Shown piece after piece: positions 21,955 through 26,342 of a stretch of 64,000 bases of DNA. The position numbers and the translations under genes were made by a program. The first letter of the stretch is position 1. Each line of letters begins with the position of its first letter. Source of the DNA: Catenuloplanes atrovinosus (lineage in GTDB: Bacteria > Actinomycetota > Actinomycetes > Mycobacteriales > Micromonosporaceae); contig NZ_JAVDYB010000001.1 of the NCBI RefSeq assembly GCF_031458235.1, positions 5,318,001 to 5,382,000 of the forward strand. The letters run 5' to 3'. The notes beneath the pieces are model-generated. The model searched no databases. It saw only the letters and a program-made list of their open reading frames with translations, and was not told the DNA's origin.

Positions 21955-22617
21955 TTACGGATGCACCACCCGGCCGCCCGCGAGCACCGCGGACAGGCCC
22001 TGGATCAGCGACCCGGCGGACGTGGTCGGCTCGAACCGCGACTCCATCCACTGCCGCCCCCGGTGCAGCCACACGCTGGGCAGGCCCATCGCGGCGGCGG
22101 CGCCGATGTCCGCCTCCGGGCTGTCGCCGACGATCCAGGCGCCGCGCAGGTGCATGCGCACGCGCTCGGCCGCCAGCGTGAAGATCCGGGGGTTCGGCTT
22201 ACTGACGCCGGCGGCCTCGGAGATCACCCAGTCCGCGACGTAGTGGTCCAGGCCGGTGCGGCGGATGATGCTCTCCTGCCGGTACGCCGGGCCGTTGCTC
22301 ACCACCACCGGCATCCAGCCGGCGTCGTCCGCGATCCGCAGGGCGCACGCCACCAGCGGGTCCAGCCGGGTGTGCTCGACCAGCCCAAGGTCGAGCTCGT
22401 CCACCAGGTCCACGGCGGAGGCGCGCAGCCGGTACCGCGCCTGGATCGAGTCGGCCAGGTCCCACCGCGAGGTCAGGCCGTCCGCGTCGATCGAGACCAG
22501 CCACTCCAGATCCTCCGGCGGCGCGCCTATCTCGGCGAGGAATTTCGCACCCCAGGCACGGAACGCCGCCTCTCGGTCGAGGAGGGTGTTGTCGAGCGCC
22601 AGCAACATGAGGGGCAC
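21955..22617 (-). CDS. HAD-superfamily hydrolase-like protein lacking the nucleophilic Asp
   Basis: 220 residues with HAD architecture: motif I near the start, a helical cap, motif II VVVSNGP, motif III Lys in GVSKPNPRIF, and motif IV IVGDSPEADI. HAD motif I is normally DxDxT; here it reads ALDNT, so Ala7 replaces the Asp nucleophile while the second Asp (Asp9) is kept. Without that Asp the usual phospho-aspartate chemistry should fail, so it may be a binding or regulatory protein. The GTG at 22617 is used; ATG at 22608 is an alternative that does not change motif I. It lies upstream of the RIO kinase gene, ~90 bp from its leader ORF. Confidence 0.8.
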   Translation of the reverse strand: MPLMLLALDNTLLDREAAFRAWGAKFLAEIGAPPEDLEWLVSIDADGLTSRWDLADSIQARYRLRASAVDLVDELDLGLVEHTRLDPLVACALRIADDAGWMPVVVSNGPAYRQESIIRRTGLDHYVADWVISEAAGVSKPNPRIFTLAAERVRMHLRGAWIVGDSPEADIGAAAAMGLPSVWLHRGRQWMESRFEPTTSAGSLIQGLSAVLAGGRVVHP

Positions 22618-22692
22618 TCGCGCACACTAGTTGAGCAGCCTGGGAGCCGACCAGTCCCACCATGTAAACAAGACGTATAAAGCAAGTCCGGG

Positions 22693-23121
22693 CTAGCGAC
22701 GACGGGTGAACGTCCGGCCCGCGACCTGCACGATCAATACCTCGGCGGTACGCCGGACGGCCGGAAACCGGCGTGGCCGGGGCTCGCTCCCGCCGTCGTA
22801 GACCCAGGCCGCCTCGCGCCGGGCCAGCTCCTCCTCGGCCGCCGGGCCCCGCGTGCCGCACGCGCGGGCGAAGTCCCAGCCGTCGCGCAGCCCGCCCGCG
22901 GTCGGCCGCCGCGCCGCCCAGGCCGCGAACGCGCCGGTCCAGCCGGTCCCGTAGCCGGCGGCCAGCATCGGCCAGTGCCGGGCCGCCACCCCGGCCCGCT
23001 TGCGCAGCAGCGCCTGCCGGGCCACGCCGACCAGCCGCGCGTCGAACCCGTCCGGGATCGGCGCGCCGCCGGTCAGCGCCGCCACCAGCGCCTCCTGCCG
23101 CGCCGCCAGGTCCCCGCTCAC
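22693..23121 (-). CDS. Small SCO6045-like partner of the DUF692 oxidase
   Basis: 142 residues, Ala/Arg-rich and helical, with ARQEALVAALTGGAPIPDGF at the start and AGYGTGWTGAFAAWAARRP in the middle. The beginning resembles the DNA-binding-like/partner domain (DUF2063-type) that accompanies DUF692 proteins; the closest family I recall is the SCO6045-like C-terminal domain of Streptomyces. The GTG start overlaps the stop of the DUF692 gene by 4 nt (GTGA), so the two are translationally coupled. It probably presents substrate to, or stabilises, the oxidase (inference from other MNIO systems). No catalytic residues or membrane segments are seen. Confidence 0.6.
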   Translation of the reverse strand: MSGDLAARQEALVAALTGGAPIPDGFDARLVGVARQALLRKRAGVAARHWPMLAAGYGTGWTGAFAAWAARRPTAGGLRDGWDFARACGTRGPAAEEELARREAAWVYDGGSEPRPRRFPAVRRTAEVLIVQVAGRTFTRRR

Positions 23122-23945
23122 CTGGTCGGGTCCGGGTAGCCGGCCGCGGCCGCGATGGCGGACAGCTCCGCGGTGAGCTCCGCCGCCGGCGGGTAGTGGC
23201 CGTCGCGCTCCAGCATCAGCGCCGGTGGCCGGCAGCGCGCGGTCAGCTCGCCGATCAGGTCGAGCACCGGCTGCGGCGTCGCGGCCGTGTGCGTGTCGTG
23301 GTAGATCCCGTCCAGGTCGTCGCCGCCGGCCACGTGGCAGTACGCGATCCGCTCCAGCGGCAGCCGGTCCAGCAGGTCCACCGGGTCGGTGCCGCGGTTG
23401 CGCGCGTTCGCGTACACGTTCGCGACGTCCAGCAGCAGCAGCGCGCCGGACCGCTCGACGATCTCGGTGATGAACTCCGCCTCGGACAGCTCCTCGTCCG
23501 GCCAGTCGAAGATCGCCGCGATCGGCTCCAGCGCGATCGGCACCGACACGGCCGCGCGCACCCGCCTGACGTTGGCCACCACCGCGTCGACCGCCTCCCG
23601 GGTGCGCGGCAGCGGCAGCAGGTGGCCCGCCTCCACGCCCCCGGCCCGGACGAACGCGATGTGCTCGCTGACCAGCGGCGCGTCCAGCGCCTCGGCCGCG
23701 GCCGCGAACTGCGCGACCCGGTCCGGCTCGACCGGGGTGGCGCCGCCCAGCGACAGCCGGACGCCGTGCGGCACCACGGTCACCCCGCGCTCCCGCAGCT
23801 CGGCCAGGCCGGGCGGGAGCGGGCCGGTGACCGGCACGGTCTCCGCGATCACCTCGGTGAACCGGAGGCCGGGCAGCCCGCCGACGTACCCGGCGATCTC
23901 CGGGCGCCAGCCGATGCCGACACCGTGGAAGGCCGGGACGGTCAT
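23118..23945 (-). CDS. DUF692 / multinuclear non-heme iron oxidase (MNIO, MbnB/TglH-like)
   Basis: 275-residue TIM-barrel protein. Family motifs: a GVGIGWRPEI start, VVPHGVRLSLGG, LVSEHIAFV, ALEPIA, LLLDVANVYANARNRG, YCHVAGGDD and YHDTHTA. These carry the His, Glu, Asp and Asn residues that bind two or three irons in MbnB and TglH. Characterised MNIOs oxidise cysteine side chains in ribosomally made peptides, giving oxazolone/thioamide, beta-carbon excision or thiooxazole. No short precursor peptide is seen here. The ATG at 23945 overlaps by 4 nt the stop of a membrane protein whose last residues are a Gly tail with two Cys, which is the obvious candidate substrate. Confidence 0.88.
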   Translation of the reverse strand: MTVPAFHGVGIGWRPEIAGYVGGLPGLRFTEVIAETVPVTGPLPPGLAELRERGVTVVPHGVRLSLGGATPVEPDRVAQFAAAAEALDAPLVSEHIAFVRAGGVEAGHLLPLPRTREAVDAVVANVRRVRAAVSVPIALEPIAAIFDWPDEELSEAEFITEIVERSGALLLLDVANVYANARNRGTDPVDLLDRLPLERIAYCHVAGGDDLDGIYHDTHTAATPQPVLDLIGELTARCRPPALMLERDGHYPPAAELTAELSAIAAAAGYPDPTR

Positions 23946-24889
23946 CCGCCGCAGCCTCCGCCACCGCCGCAGCCGCCACCACCGCCGCCGTCGGAGCCAC
24001 CGCCGCCGCCGTCCGAGCCGCCCCAGGACGAGCCGGCATCGCCGGACCACCCGCCGCCGGACGCGGCCGACGCGGTCTGCCGCTGGATCTCCGCCTCGGC
24101 CGCGAACGCGGCGTCGTACGTGTAGAGCGACGCGGTGCCCCAGAGCGCCACGCCCATCGCCAGGCCGGTCGCGCCGTAGGTGCCCCAGGCCGGCGACTGT
24201 GCCGGCGACAGGTACTGGTAGCGCGTCCGCAGCCCCTCCAGCACCCGCCGGCCGGCCCGGGTCATCCACGGCGTACGGCCGCGCAGGACCAGCGTGGTGA
24301 TGCCGAGCGCGATCACGATCAGCACCAGGTACCCGACCGGCGCGCCGTTGACCAGGCCGGACACGATGCGCACCGCGCCCAGTGCGACCAGCGCGGCGAG
24401 CAGCCACGTGCTGCCGCGGTAGGCGCGGCGGTCCTCCTCGGTGAGCGCGAGCCCGAGCCGTTCCAGCTCGGACCGCAGCCGGTCCAGCTCGTTGGTCACG
24501 CCCGGCTCGGTCTTCACCGCGCGCACCGACCGGGTGCTCCGCAGGCCGTGGTAGACGGCGGCGTCCAGGGCCGGCGCGCCCGGCGGGAGCGGCGCGGACG
24601 GCGTCGTGATCCGGCCCGGGCTGATGTCGATCACACCGGCCGCGCGCAGCGCCGCGACCGAGGAGTAGACGGCGAGTTCGGGCCCGCCGGTGAGGTAGGC
24701 GGCCTGCTGCGAGGTGAGCCGGTCCGCGCCGGGGAGCTGCCGGCCGGCGGCCAGCCCGCTGCGGCGGACCAGGACGATGACGAGTGCGACGACGGCCGCA
24801 CCGAGGTACAGCGCGAGGAAGGTCGGGCCCGGGATTCCCCAGGTGGCGCCCGATGCCGATTGCGCGATCATGTCGTCATTGTGCGCCAC
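23942..24889 (-). CDS. TIGR04222-like membrane protein with Gly/Cys-rich C-terminal tail
   Basis: 315 residues from the GTG at 24889 (ATG at 24871 is also possible; no clear SD). Transmembrane helices are predicted near residues 23-41, 165-185, 190-210 and possibly 240-262. The segment between the first and second (RLTSQQAAYLTGGPELAVYS, then AAVYHGLRS) fits the actinobacterial TIGR04222 family. After the last helix comes a low-complexity tail of about 40 residues, Ser/Gly/Trp then nearly pure Gly, ending CGGGGGCGG with Cys307 and Cys313. This gene heads a coupled unit with the DUF692 oxidase and its partner. A membrane-tethered, Cys-modified tail is the working idea; function is otherwise unknown. 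Confidence 0.8.
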   Translation of the reverse strand: MAHNDDMIAQSASGATWGIPGPTFLALYLGAAVVALVIVLVRRSGLAAGRQLPGADRLTSQQAAYLTGGPELAVYSSVAALRAAGVIDISPGRITTPSAPLPPGAPALDAAVYHGLRSTRSVRAVKTEPGVTNELDRLRSELERLGLALTEEDRRAYRGSTWLLAALVALGAVRIVSGLVNGAPVGYLVLIVIALGITTLVLRGRTPWMTRAGRRVLEGLRTRYQYLSPAQSPAWGTYGATGLAMGVALWGTASLYTYDAAFAAEAEIQRQTASAASGGGWSGDAGSSWGGSDGGGGGSDGGGGGGCGGGGGCGG

Positions 24890-24925
24890 CGCCGCCAGCG
24901 CGGGACTCCCCGGAACGGGCCATGA

Positions 24926-25498
24926 TCAGGGACGGCGGACCGCTTCCTCCACCACGTCCAGCACCCGGCTCAGCGAACCGGCCGGGCGGCCCATCGCCAG
25001 GTGCAGCACCAGCCCGTCGTAGGCCAGCTCCAGGAACTCGGCCAGCACGTCCAGCGGCACGTCGTCGCGCAGCTTCCCGGCGTCGCGCAGCCGGCCGAGC
25101 CGGGTGCGGGTGGCCTCCTCGATCGCGGCCTGCCGCTGCGCCCACCGGGACGCGAAGTCCGGGTCCGTGCGCAGCCGCCGCGAGACCTCCAGCTGGCTGC
25201 CCAGCCAGCCCGCCGTGTCCGGCGACCCGGCGCGCGCCAGCAGGTCGCGCATCACCTGGACCAGGCCGTTCTCCGCGACCGTGCTGACCATGGCGGCGGC
25301 GTCGTCCTCCGCGACCGCGAGGAACAGCGAGTCCTTGTCCCGGAAGTGGTGGAAGATCGCGCCGCGGGACAGGCCGGTGGCCTCCTCCAGGCGACGCACG
25401 GTGGCGCCCTCGTACCCGTGCCGGGCGAAGCAGGCTCGCGCGGCCGAGAGTATCTCCTGGCGGCGCGCGTCGAGCTGGTCCTGGCTTACCCTTGGCAC
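24926..25498 (-). CDS. acnR: TetR-family regulator of aconitase (AcnR)
   Basis: 190 residues. The N-terminal helix-turn-helix (HGYEGATVRRLEEATGLSRG then AIFHHFRDKDSLFLA) and the C-terminal domain (ENGLVQVMRDLL, SRRLRTDPDFASRW) closely match Corynebacterium glutamicum AcnR, a 188-residue repressor of acn that senses citrate and Mg2+. In mycobacteria acnR lies right after acn; here it is ~6.7 kb away. The GTG at 25498 gives family length; the frame stays open to 25582 but this would overlap the palindrome. No SD precedes the GTG, so the transcript could be leaderless. The palindrome CCGTACGTACGG lies 39 bp upstream, between this gene and the divergent SDR gene. Confidence 0.88.
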   Translation of the reverse strand: MPRVSQDQLDARRQEILSAARACFARHGYEGATVRRLEEATGLSRGAIFHHFRDKDSLFLAVAEDDAAAMVSTVAENGLVQVMRDLLARAGSPDTAGWLGSQLEVSRRLRTDPDFASRWAQRQAAIEEATRTRLGRLRDAGKLRDDVPLDVLAEFLELAYDGLVLHLAMGRPAGSLSRVLDVVEEAVRRP

Positions 25499-25536
25499 GC
25501 GAACGATCGTGTCACGCTGCGCAGTAATTCTGCAAT

Positions 25537-25548
25537 CCGTACGTACGG
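25537..25548. promoter_or_regulatory. Palindrome in the acnR/SDR divergent promoter region
   Basis: Perfect 12-bp palindrome CCGTACGTACGG in the 82-bp gap between acnR and the SDR gene. The half-site ACGTACG also occurs twice in front of acnA. TetR proteins bind such palindromes and usually regulate themselves, so this is a candidate AcnR operator. Confidence 0.45.
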
Positions 25549-25580
25549 CTTGTAACTCGCGCGTGCGTAGGATGTCACGC

Positions 25581-26342
25581 ATGGATCTGGGTCTGGACGG
25601 TCGTGTCTACGTACTCACCGGCGCCTCCCGCGGCCTGGGCTTCGCCACCGCGTCCGCGCTGGTCGCGGAGGGCGCACGCGTGGTGATCTCCGCGCGGGAC
25701 GCGGACGCGGTCGCCGATGCCGTGGACCGGCTGGGTGGCGATGATCACGCGCACGGCGTGGCCGCCGACCTCGCCGACCCGGACACGGCGCGGCGCCTGG
25801 TCGACGCGGCCACCGCCCGGTTCGGCCGGATCGACGGCGCGCTGATCTCGGTCGGCGGCCCGCCGCACGGCTCGACGCTCCAGGTGACGGACGAGCAGTG
25901 GCGCCAGTCGTTCGAGAGCGTGTTCCTGGGCGCGGTGCGCACGGCCCGGGTGATCGCCGCCGCGCTCTCCGAGGGCGGCGCCCTCGCGCTGGTCGCGTCC
26001 AGCTCCGCGAAGTCGCCGATCGTCGACCTCGGCATCTCCAACGGGCTGCGCCCCGGCCTGTCCATGGTGGCCAAGGAGCTGGCCGACGAGCTCGGCCCGC
26101 GCGGCATCCGCGTGCTGAGCCTGCTGCCCGGCCGGGTCCTCACCGGCCGGCTGCACGAGCTGTTCGAGGCCACCGGCGACGCGGAGCGGGCCGCCGCCGA
26201 CGCCGCCGCGCGAATCCCGCTGCGCCGCGTCGGCGAGCCCGCGGAGTTCGCGCGCGTCGCCGCGTTCGTGCTCTCCCCCGCCGCGAGCTACCTGACCGGC
26301 GTCGCGCTGCCCGTCGACGGCGGCGCCATGCGTACCCTCTGA
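25581..26342 (+). CDS. SDR-family oxidoreductase with substituted catalytic Tyr/Lys
   Basis: 253-residue Rossmann-fold protein. Cofactor motif TGASRGLG (residues ~13-20) and the usual ending with VALPVDGG are present, and a Ser cluster (Ser140-142) sits at the catalytic Ser position. Where classical SDRs have YxxxK there is S153-N-G-L-R157, so Tyr becomes Ser and Lys becomes Arg. NAD(P)(H) binding is likely but the usual proton relay is absent; activity may be altered or lost. The ATG at 25581 has AGGA 8 nt upstream; an in-frame ATG at 25572 is less well placed. It overlaps the Mug gene by 1 nt and diverges from acnR. Confidence 0.85.
   Translation: MDLGLDGRVYVLTGASRGLGFATASALVAEGARVVISARDADAVADAVDRLGGDDHAHGVAADLADPDTARRLVDAATARFGRIDGALISVGGPPHGSTLQVTDEQWRQSFESVFLGAVRTARVIAAALSEGGALALVASSSAKSPIVDLGISNGLRPGLSMVAKELADELGPRGIRVLSLLPGRVLTGRLHELFEATGDAERAAADAAARIPLRRVGEPAEFARVAAFVLSPAASYLTGVALPVDGGAMRTL

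Follow-up and report, generated by a model that had tools for sequence, protein, structure and literature searches.

A TIGR04222 membrane protein with a conserved Gly/Cys tail as a candidate MNIO substrate in Catenuloplanes atrovinosus

The window, a 64,000-nucleotide stretch of the Catenuloplanes atrovinosus genome (NZ_JAVDYB010000001.1, positions 5,318,001 to 5,382,000), contains three coupled genes on the minus strand. These encode a TIGR04222 membrane protein (P0001, 23942–24889, 315 residues from a GTG start, with an in-frame ATG at codon 7 as an alternative start), an MNIO (DUF692) oxidase (P0002, 23118–23945, 275 residues), and a partner protein resembling those of PME-type 2 (P0003, 22693–23121, 142 residues). 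As the initial annotation had it, stop and start codons overlap by 4 nt at both junctions, with ATGA (23945–23942) joining the TIGR04222 gene to the MNIO gene and GTGA (23121–23118) joining the latter to the partner gene. Its remark that the locus has no short precursor also stood: no short precursor with a cleaved leader, the criterion for a RiPP, is evident in the coupled unit. A TetR-type regulator gene (24926–25582, minus strand) ends 36 nt upstream of the TIGR04222 gene. Among the 80 loci compared, the 48 with a TetR gene, in other Micromonosporaceae, all had it on the MNIO strand, and in this family it probably belongs to the unit as its first gene.

P0002 matched PF05114, the MNIO family of MbnB, TglH, and ChrH, with 265 bits, against a cut-off of 25. 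Nine residues, which we take to be the metal ligands from general knowledge of the MNIO family (H60, H95, E140, D173, N176, H204, D217, H219, and E246), were invariant in 35 sequences, in keeping with the earlier description of a DUF692/MNIO enzyme with intact metal-ligand motifs. The nearest named MNIO relatives were from Paractinoplanes and other Micromonosporaceae, and a relative of known structure was found in the PDB (8hci/8hi7/8hi8, E = 1.8e-27). BufB was the best-scoring MNIO equivalog, at 177.1 bits, which is below the cut-off of 310 for a bufferin assignment. The source genome, 8.9 Mb in one contig, encodes one MNIO and one strong TIGR04222 protein; a second, weak TIGR04222-like match (24.5 bits) was found elsewhere in it.

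The partner, P0003, matched no Pfam or NCBIfam family. It was modelled by AlphaFold2 with high confidence (pLDDT 95.9) as five helices and a three-stranded sheet. A homologue directly followed the MNIO gene in all 80 named loci, the position expected of a PME-type 2 partner. In the genome samples the partner was separate for 120 MNIO frames, fused for 46 and missing for 11, the last mostly at locus ends or in other MNIO clades (counts include overlapping loci). The partner is thus nearly universal beside MNIO, whether separate or fused. In the fusions, which fell in two families (f19 and f20, the latter probably Streptomyces-like), the partner was joined to the MNIO C-terminus by ~35–60 residues in one open frame. 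Such fusions, which were not found in the main text of PMC12452194, represent a natural single-chain enzyme. Kinship of P0003 to DUF2063 or MbnC was only hinted at. DUF2063 was the top Pfam family in a remote homology search, yet through only 2 of 65 members (best E = 0.016), and a Foldseek comparison with MbnC (7dz9_C) gave E = 1.1 and a probability of 0.38. Alignment with three actinomycete DUF2063 proteins by hhalign, from shallow alignments, gave a probability of 0.4%. The partner profile had no match among PDB sequences, and DUF2063 had none in the source genome. A bufferin-type MNIO with a DUF2063 partner was seen in only 3 of 297 sampled genomes of the class, with one more weak DUF2063 match. 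Rhodococcus qingshengii carries MNIO and partner genes with no TIGR04222 gene detected by the local profile.

P0001 matched NCBIfam TIGR04222 over residues 27–255 (153.7 bits, cut-off 43). Its AlphaFold2 model contains helices at 21–48, 151–180, and 186–204, and a weaker one at 235–258. Helix 21–48 is followed by two small helix-and-strand units, winged-helix-like by secondary structure. Comparison of the model with the PDB by Foldseek produced no meaningful match, and no experimental work on TIGR04222 proteins was found in the open-licence literature. Hydropathy analysis clearly supported three transmembrane helices. The fourth was doubtful, scoring 0.95 in the window protein and less than 1.6 in 47 of 62 homologues. 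The Cys-tailed proteins of Streptomyces-type genomes mostly had three helices and no hydrophobic stretch ahead of the tail. Three helices, together with the positive charge found after helices 1 and 3, would place the tail in the cytosol, the expected location of the MNIO. Four would place it outside, and the main text of PMC12452194 puts it in the periplasm, whereas hydropathy here allows either side. The doubt over the fourth helix means that the tail may lie in the cytosol and not, as published, in the periplasm.

The Gly/Ser tail of P0001 (23945–24088, minus strand) ends in CGGGGGCGG and was predicted to be disordered, with pLDDT below 50 for residues 278–307 and 309–315. Both cysteines described in the initial annotation, Cys307 (codon 23971–23969) and Cys313 (codon 23953–23951), are present, and their columns were at least 90% conserved in 62 aligned homologues, so that they rank with the most conserved positions in the family. 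The same annotation had set the tail cysteines of homologues beside DUF692 genes as the point on which its proposal could fail. They were retained: among 112 distinct tails with an MNIO gene downstream, 111 carried Cys, usually 3–5. Arg and Val, like Cys, are one base change from Gly codons; in the last 35 residues of these tails, Cys occurred 441 times, Arg 17 times, and Val 14 times. Given this excess and the conservation of the columns, the tail cysteines are not a product of chance. Their setting was also regular. The preceding residue was Gly or Ser in 450 of 461 cases and the following residue Gly in 402 of 461; spacing was mostly 5–7 residues, with a mode of 6, and 84 of the 112 tails ended in CGG. 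An exception was a Virgisporangium homologue beside an MNIO gene, in which the Gly/Cys tail was lost and an acidic tail with a single Cys was found instead. The substrate region of Microcin B17, a YcaO-type azole peptide made by enzymes different from MNIO, resembles the tail in being rich in Gly, Ser, and Cys. This likeness is compositional only, and the match of the tail to 6grh was weak and composition-driven. On a 33.5-kb plasmid of Tsukamurella tyrosinosolvens, a TIGR04222 gene consisting of two copies joined together, with the tail GGGSCGGASCGGDGGGGCGGCGGCGGCGGCGG, occurs together with an MNIO gene whose partner is short and probably truncated.

The co-occurrence with DUF692 that the initial annotation had proposed as a check on TIGR04222 neighbourhoods was borne out. 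Across 151 genomes of Micromonosporaceae, 109 MNIO matches were found, 86 of them no more than 3 kb from a listed TIGR04222 match; several of the others were at contig ends. Among the matches listed, 92 of the 151 genomes had both, making this a very common actinomycete gene set, and the linkage of TIGR04222 to MNIO and partner held across many genera. Tail cysteines followed the oxidase. At least two were present in 141 of 199 TIGR04222 proteins, and all 141 came from genomes with MNIO; none of the nine proteins from MNIO-less genomes had as many. Several proteins in MNIO-less genomes kept Gly/Asp tails without Cys, and where no MNIO gene was adjacent, many TIGR04222 genes encoded neither a Gly tail nor Cys. 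A breakdown of Cys content by presence of MNIO was not found in the main text of PMC12452194. Tandem TIGR04222 genes ahead of a single MNIO gene were seen in several Micromonosporaceae genomes. Cys-tailed paralogues without an adjacent MNIO gene also occurred, all of them in genomes with MNIO elsewhere; these lone paralogues are possible trans substrates.

A scan that was blind to gene context gave a consistent picture. A 30-bp DNA motif for CGGGGGCGG plus stop was searched for in the 151 genomes, with the reversed pattern as control. The motif was found in 30 genomes, once in each, and in all 30 it lay at the stop of a TIGR04222 gene beside MNIO, with variation at third codon positions among the matches; the control gave 1 match. 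With a looser pattern in the source genome, only the window tail was convincing, and the six other matches look like chance, as the control gave as many. Across 375 class members, the co-occurrence table for MNIO and TIGR04222 (74/25/17/259) gave a Fisher p of 1e-39, with kinship ignored. Tests of independent pairs on the domain tree favoured association but were not significant and were underpowered. The association rests on few independent changes, and the counts are not independent of ancestry. In addition, about 15 Streptomyces-type genomes have a Cys-less TIGR04222 gene, with no Cys tail within several kb, next to a gene for an MNIO–partner fusion that retains every putative ligand. Either MNIO acts on a different substrate there, or these genomes encode a copy with a Cys tail at another place. 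These genomes and the Virgisporangium case limit generality without contradicting the window locus.

The tail of the TIGR04222 protein is best read as a candidate MNIO substrate, and we consider this reading fairly probable. Comparative evidence, namely the conservation of Cys and the linkage to MNIO, supports the proposal of the initial annotation. The idea itself is not new, as PMC12452194 (July 2025) proposed that MNIO acts on some TIGR04222 proteins, those whose C-terminal tails are rich in Cys, and described PME-type 2 partners. According to the same paper, Cys near the C-terminus is lacking in more than a quarter of TIGR04222 proteins, and MNIO in a third of the genomes with TIGR04222. 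The locus is another case of these recently proposed, putative TIGR04222–MNIO clusters, which include a Micromonospora example, and shares with them the gene set and the PME-type 2 partner. The frequency of the partner differs: the paper detected one in at least 10% of such clusters, many seemingly being without one, whereas nearly every MNIO has one here.

Under this reading, the three genes would constitute a unit for protein modification. In the cytosol, the MNIO would dock with its partner, a putative PME-type 2 helper that may be DUF2063-like, and the two would oxidise those cysteines of the flexible tail at the C-terminus that stand in a Ser/Gly-Cys-Gly setting. Because P0002 is closest to the bufferin maturases, Cys-derived thiooxazoles would be the likeliest product, and binding of a metal, such as copper, at the membrane the likeliest use; both are extrapolated from the resemblance to BufB. 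As in the bufferins (BufA/BufB/BufC), an MNIO and a partner would act on Cys. The bufferins, however, are small Sec-secreted precursors with a DUF2063 partner, whereas the candidate substrate here is a polytopic membrane protein of three or four helices without a signal peptide, and P0003 is not recognised as DUF2063. A more detailed version, which we put forward tentatively, is that the tail stays attached, probably in the cytosol, where MNIO and partner would build a chain of Cys-derived heterocycles, giving a membrane-anchored, metal-binding brush, with the paralogues as substrates in trans. Modification of the tail, if it occurs, would mean that MNIO chemistry reaches beyond small peptides and covers polytopic membrane proteins as well.

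Other explanations were weighed against modification of the tail. The oxidase might act on another target, with the tail cysteines unmodified, binding metal or forming disulfides, and merely co-regulated. The Streptomyces-type MNIO–partner genes beside Cys-less TIGR04222 genes and the Rhodococcus locus fit such an arrangement. Yet the coupled unit has no evident short precursor with Cys, Cys tails go along with the presence of MNIO, and paralogues that carry a Cys tail without a neighbouring MNIO gene are confined to genomes with MNIO, so that we regard another target as rather unlikely. Still less likely, in our estimation, is that the tail is modified while attached and then cut off as a free peptide, the membrane domain serving as leader and exporter. 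Known MNIO products are peptides, and the disordered tail would face outward if the membrane is crossed by the weak helix 235–258, but the unit is without a protease gene, and no cleavage motif common to all sequences was seen between the domain and its tail in the 62-homologue alignment.

A further reading explains the Gly-rich end as a by-product, arising because the overlapping MNIO gene needs a ribosome-binding site and a start codon there. GGAGG does occur within the last codons, and the stop shares bases with the start codon of MNIO. The Cys codons, however, contribute nothing to a ribosome-binding site, and Cys tails persist both in lone paralogues and in Streptomyces-type genomes where MNIO lies upstream. 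These tails largely refute the by-product reading, which was rejected as highly improbable.

The four-gene block from TetR to partner seems to have been inverted as a unit in the genus of the window. In other Micromonosporaceae the neighbouring HAD gene lay on the strand opposite MNIO (41 of 41). In the window it shared the MNIO strand, as it did in three congeners out of the four sampled; the locus of the remaining one ends before the HAD gene. In the window (21955–26342), the block is inverted relative to both its HAD and its SDR neighbours when compared with other Micromonosporaceae.
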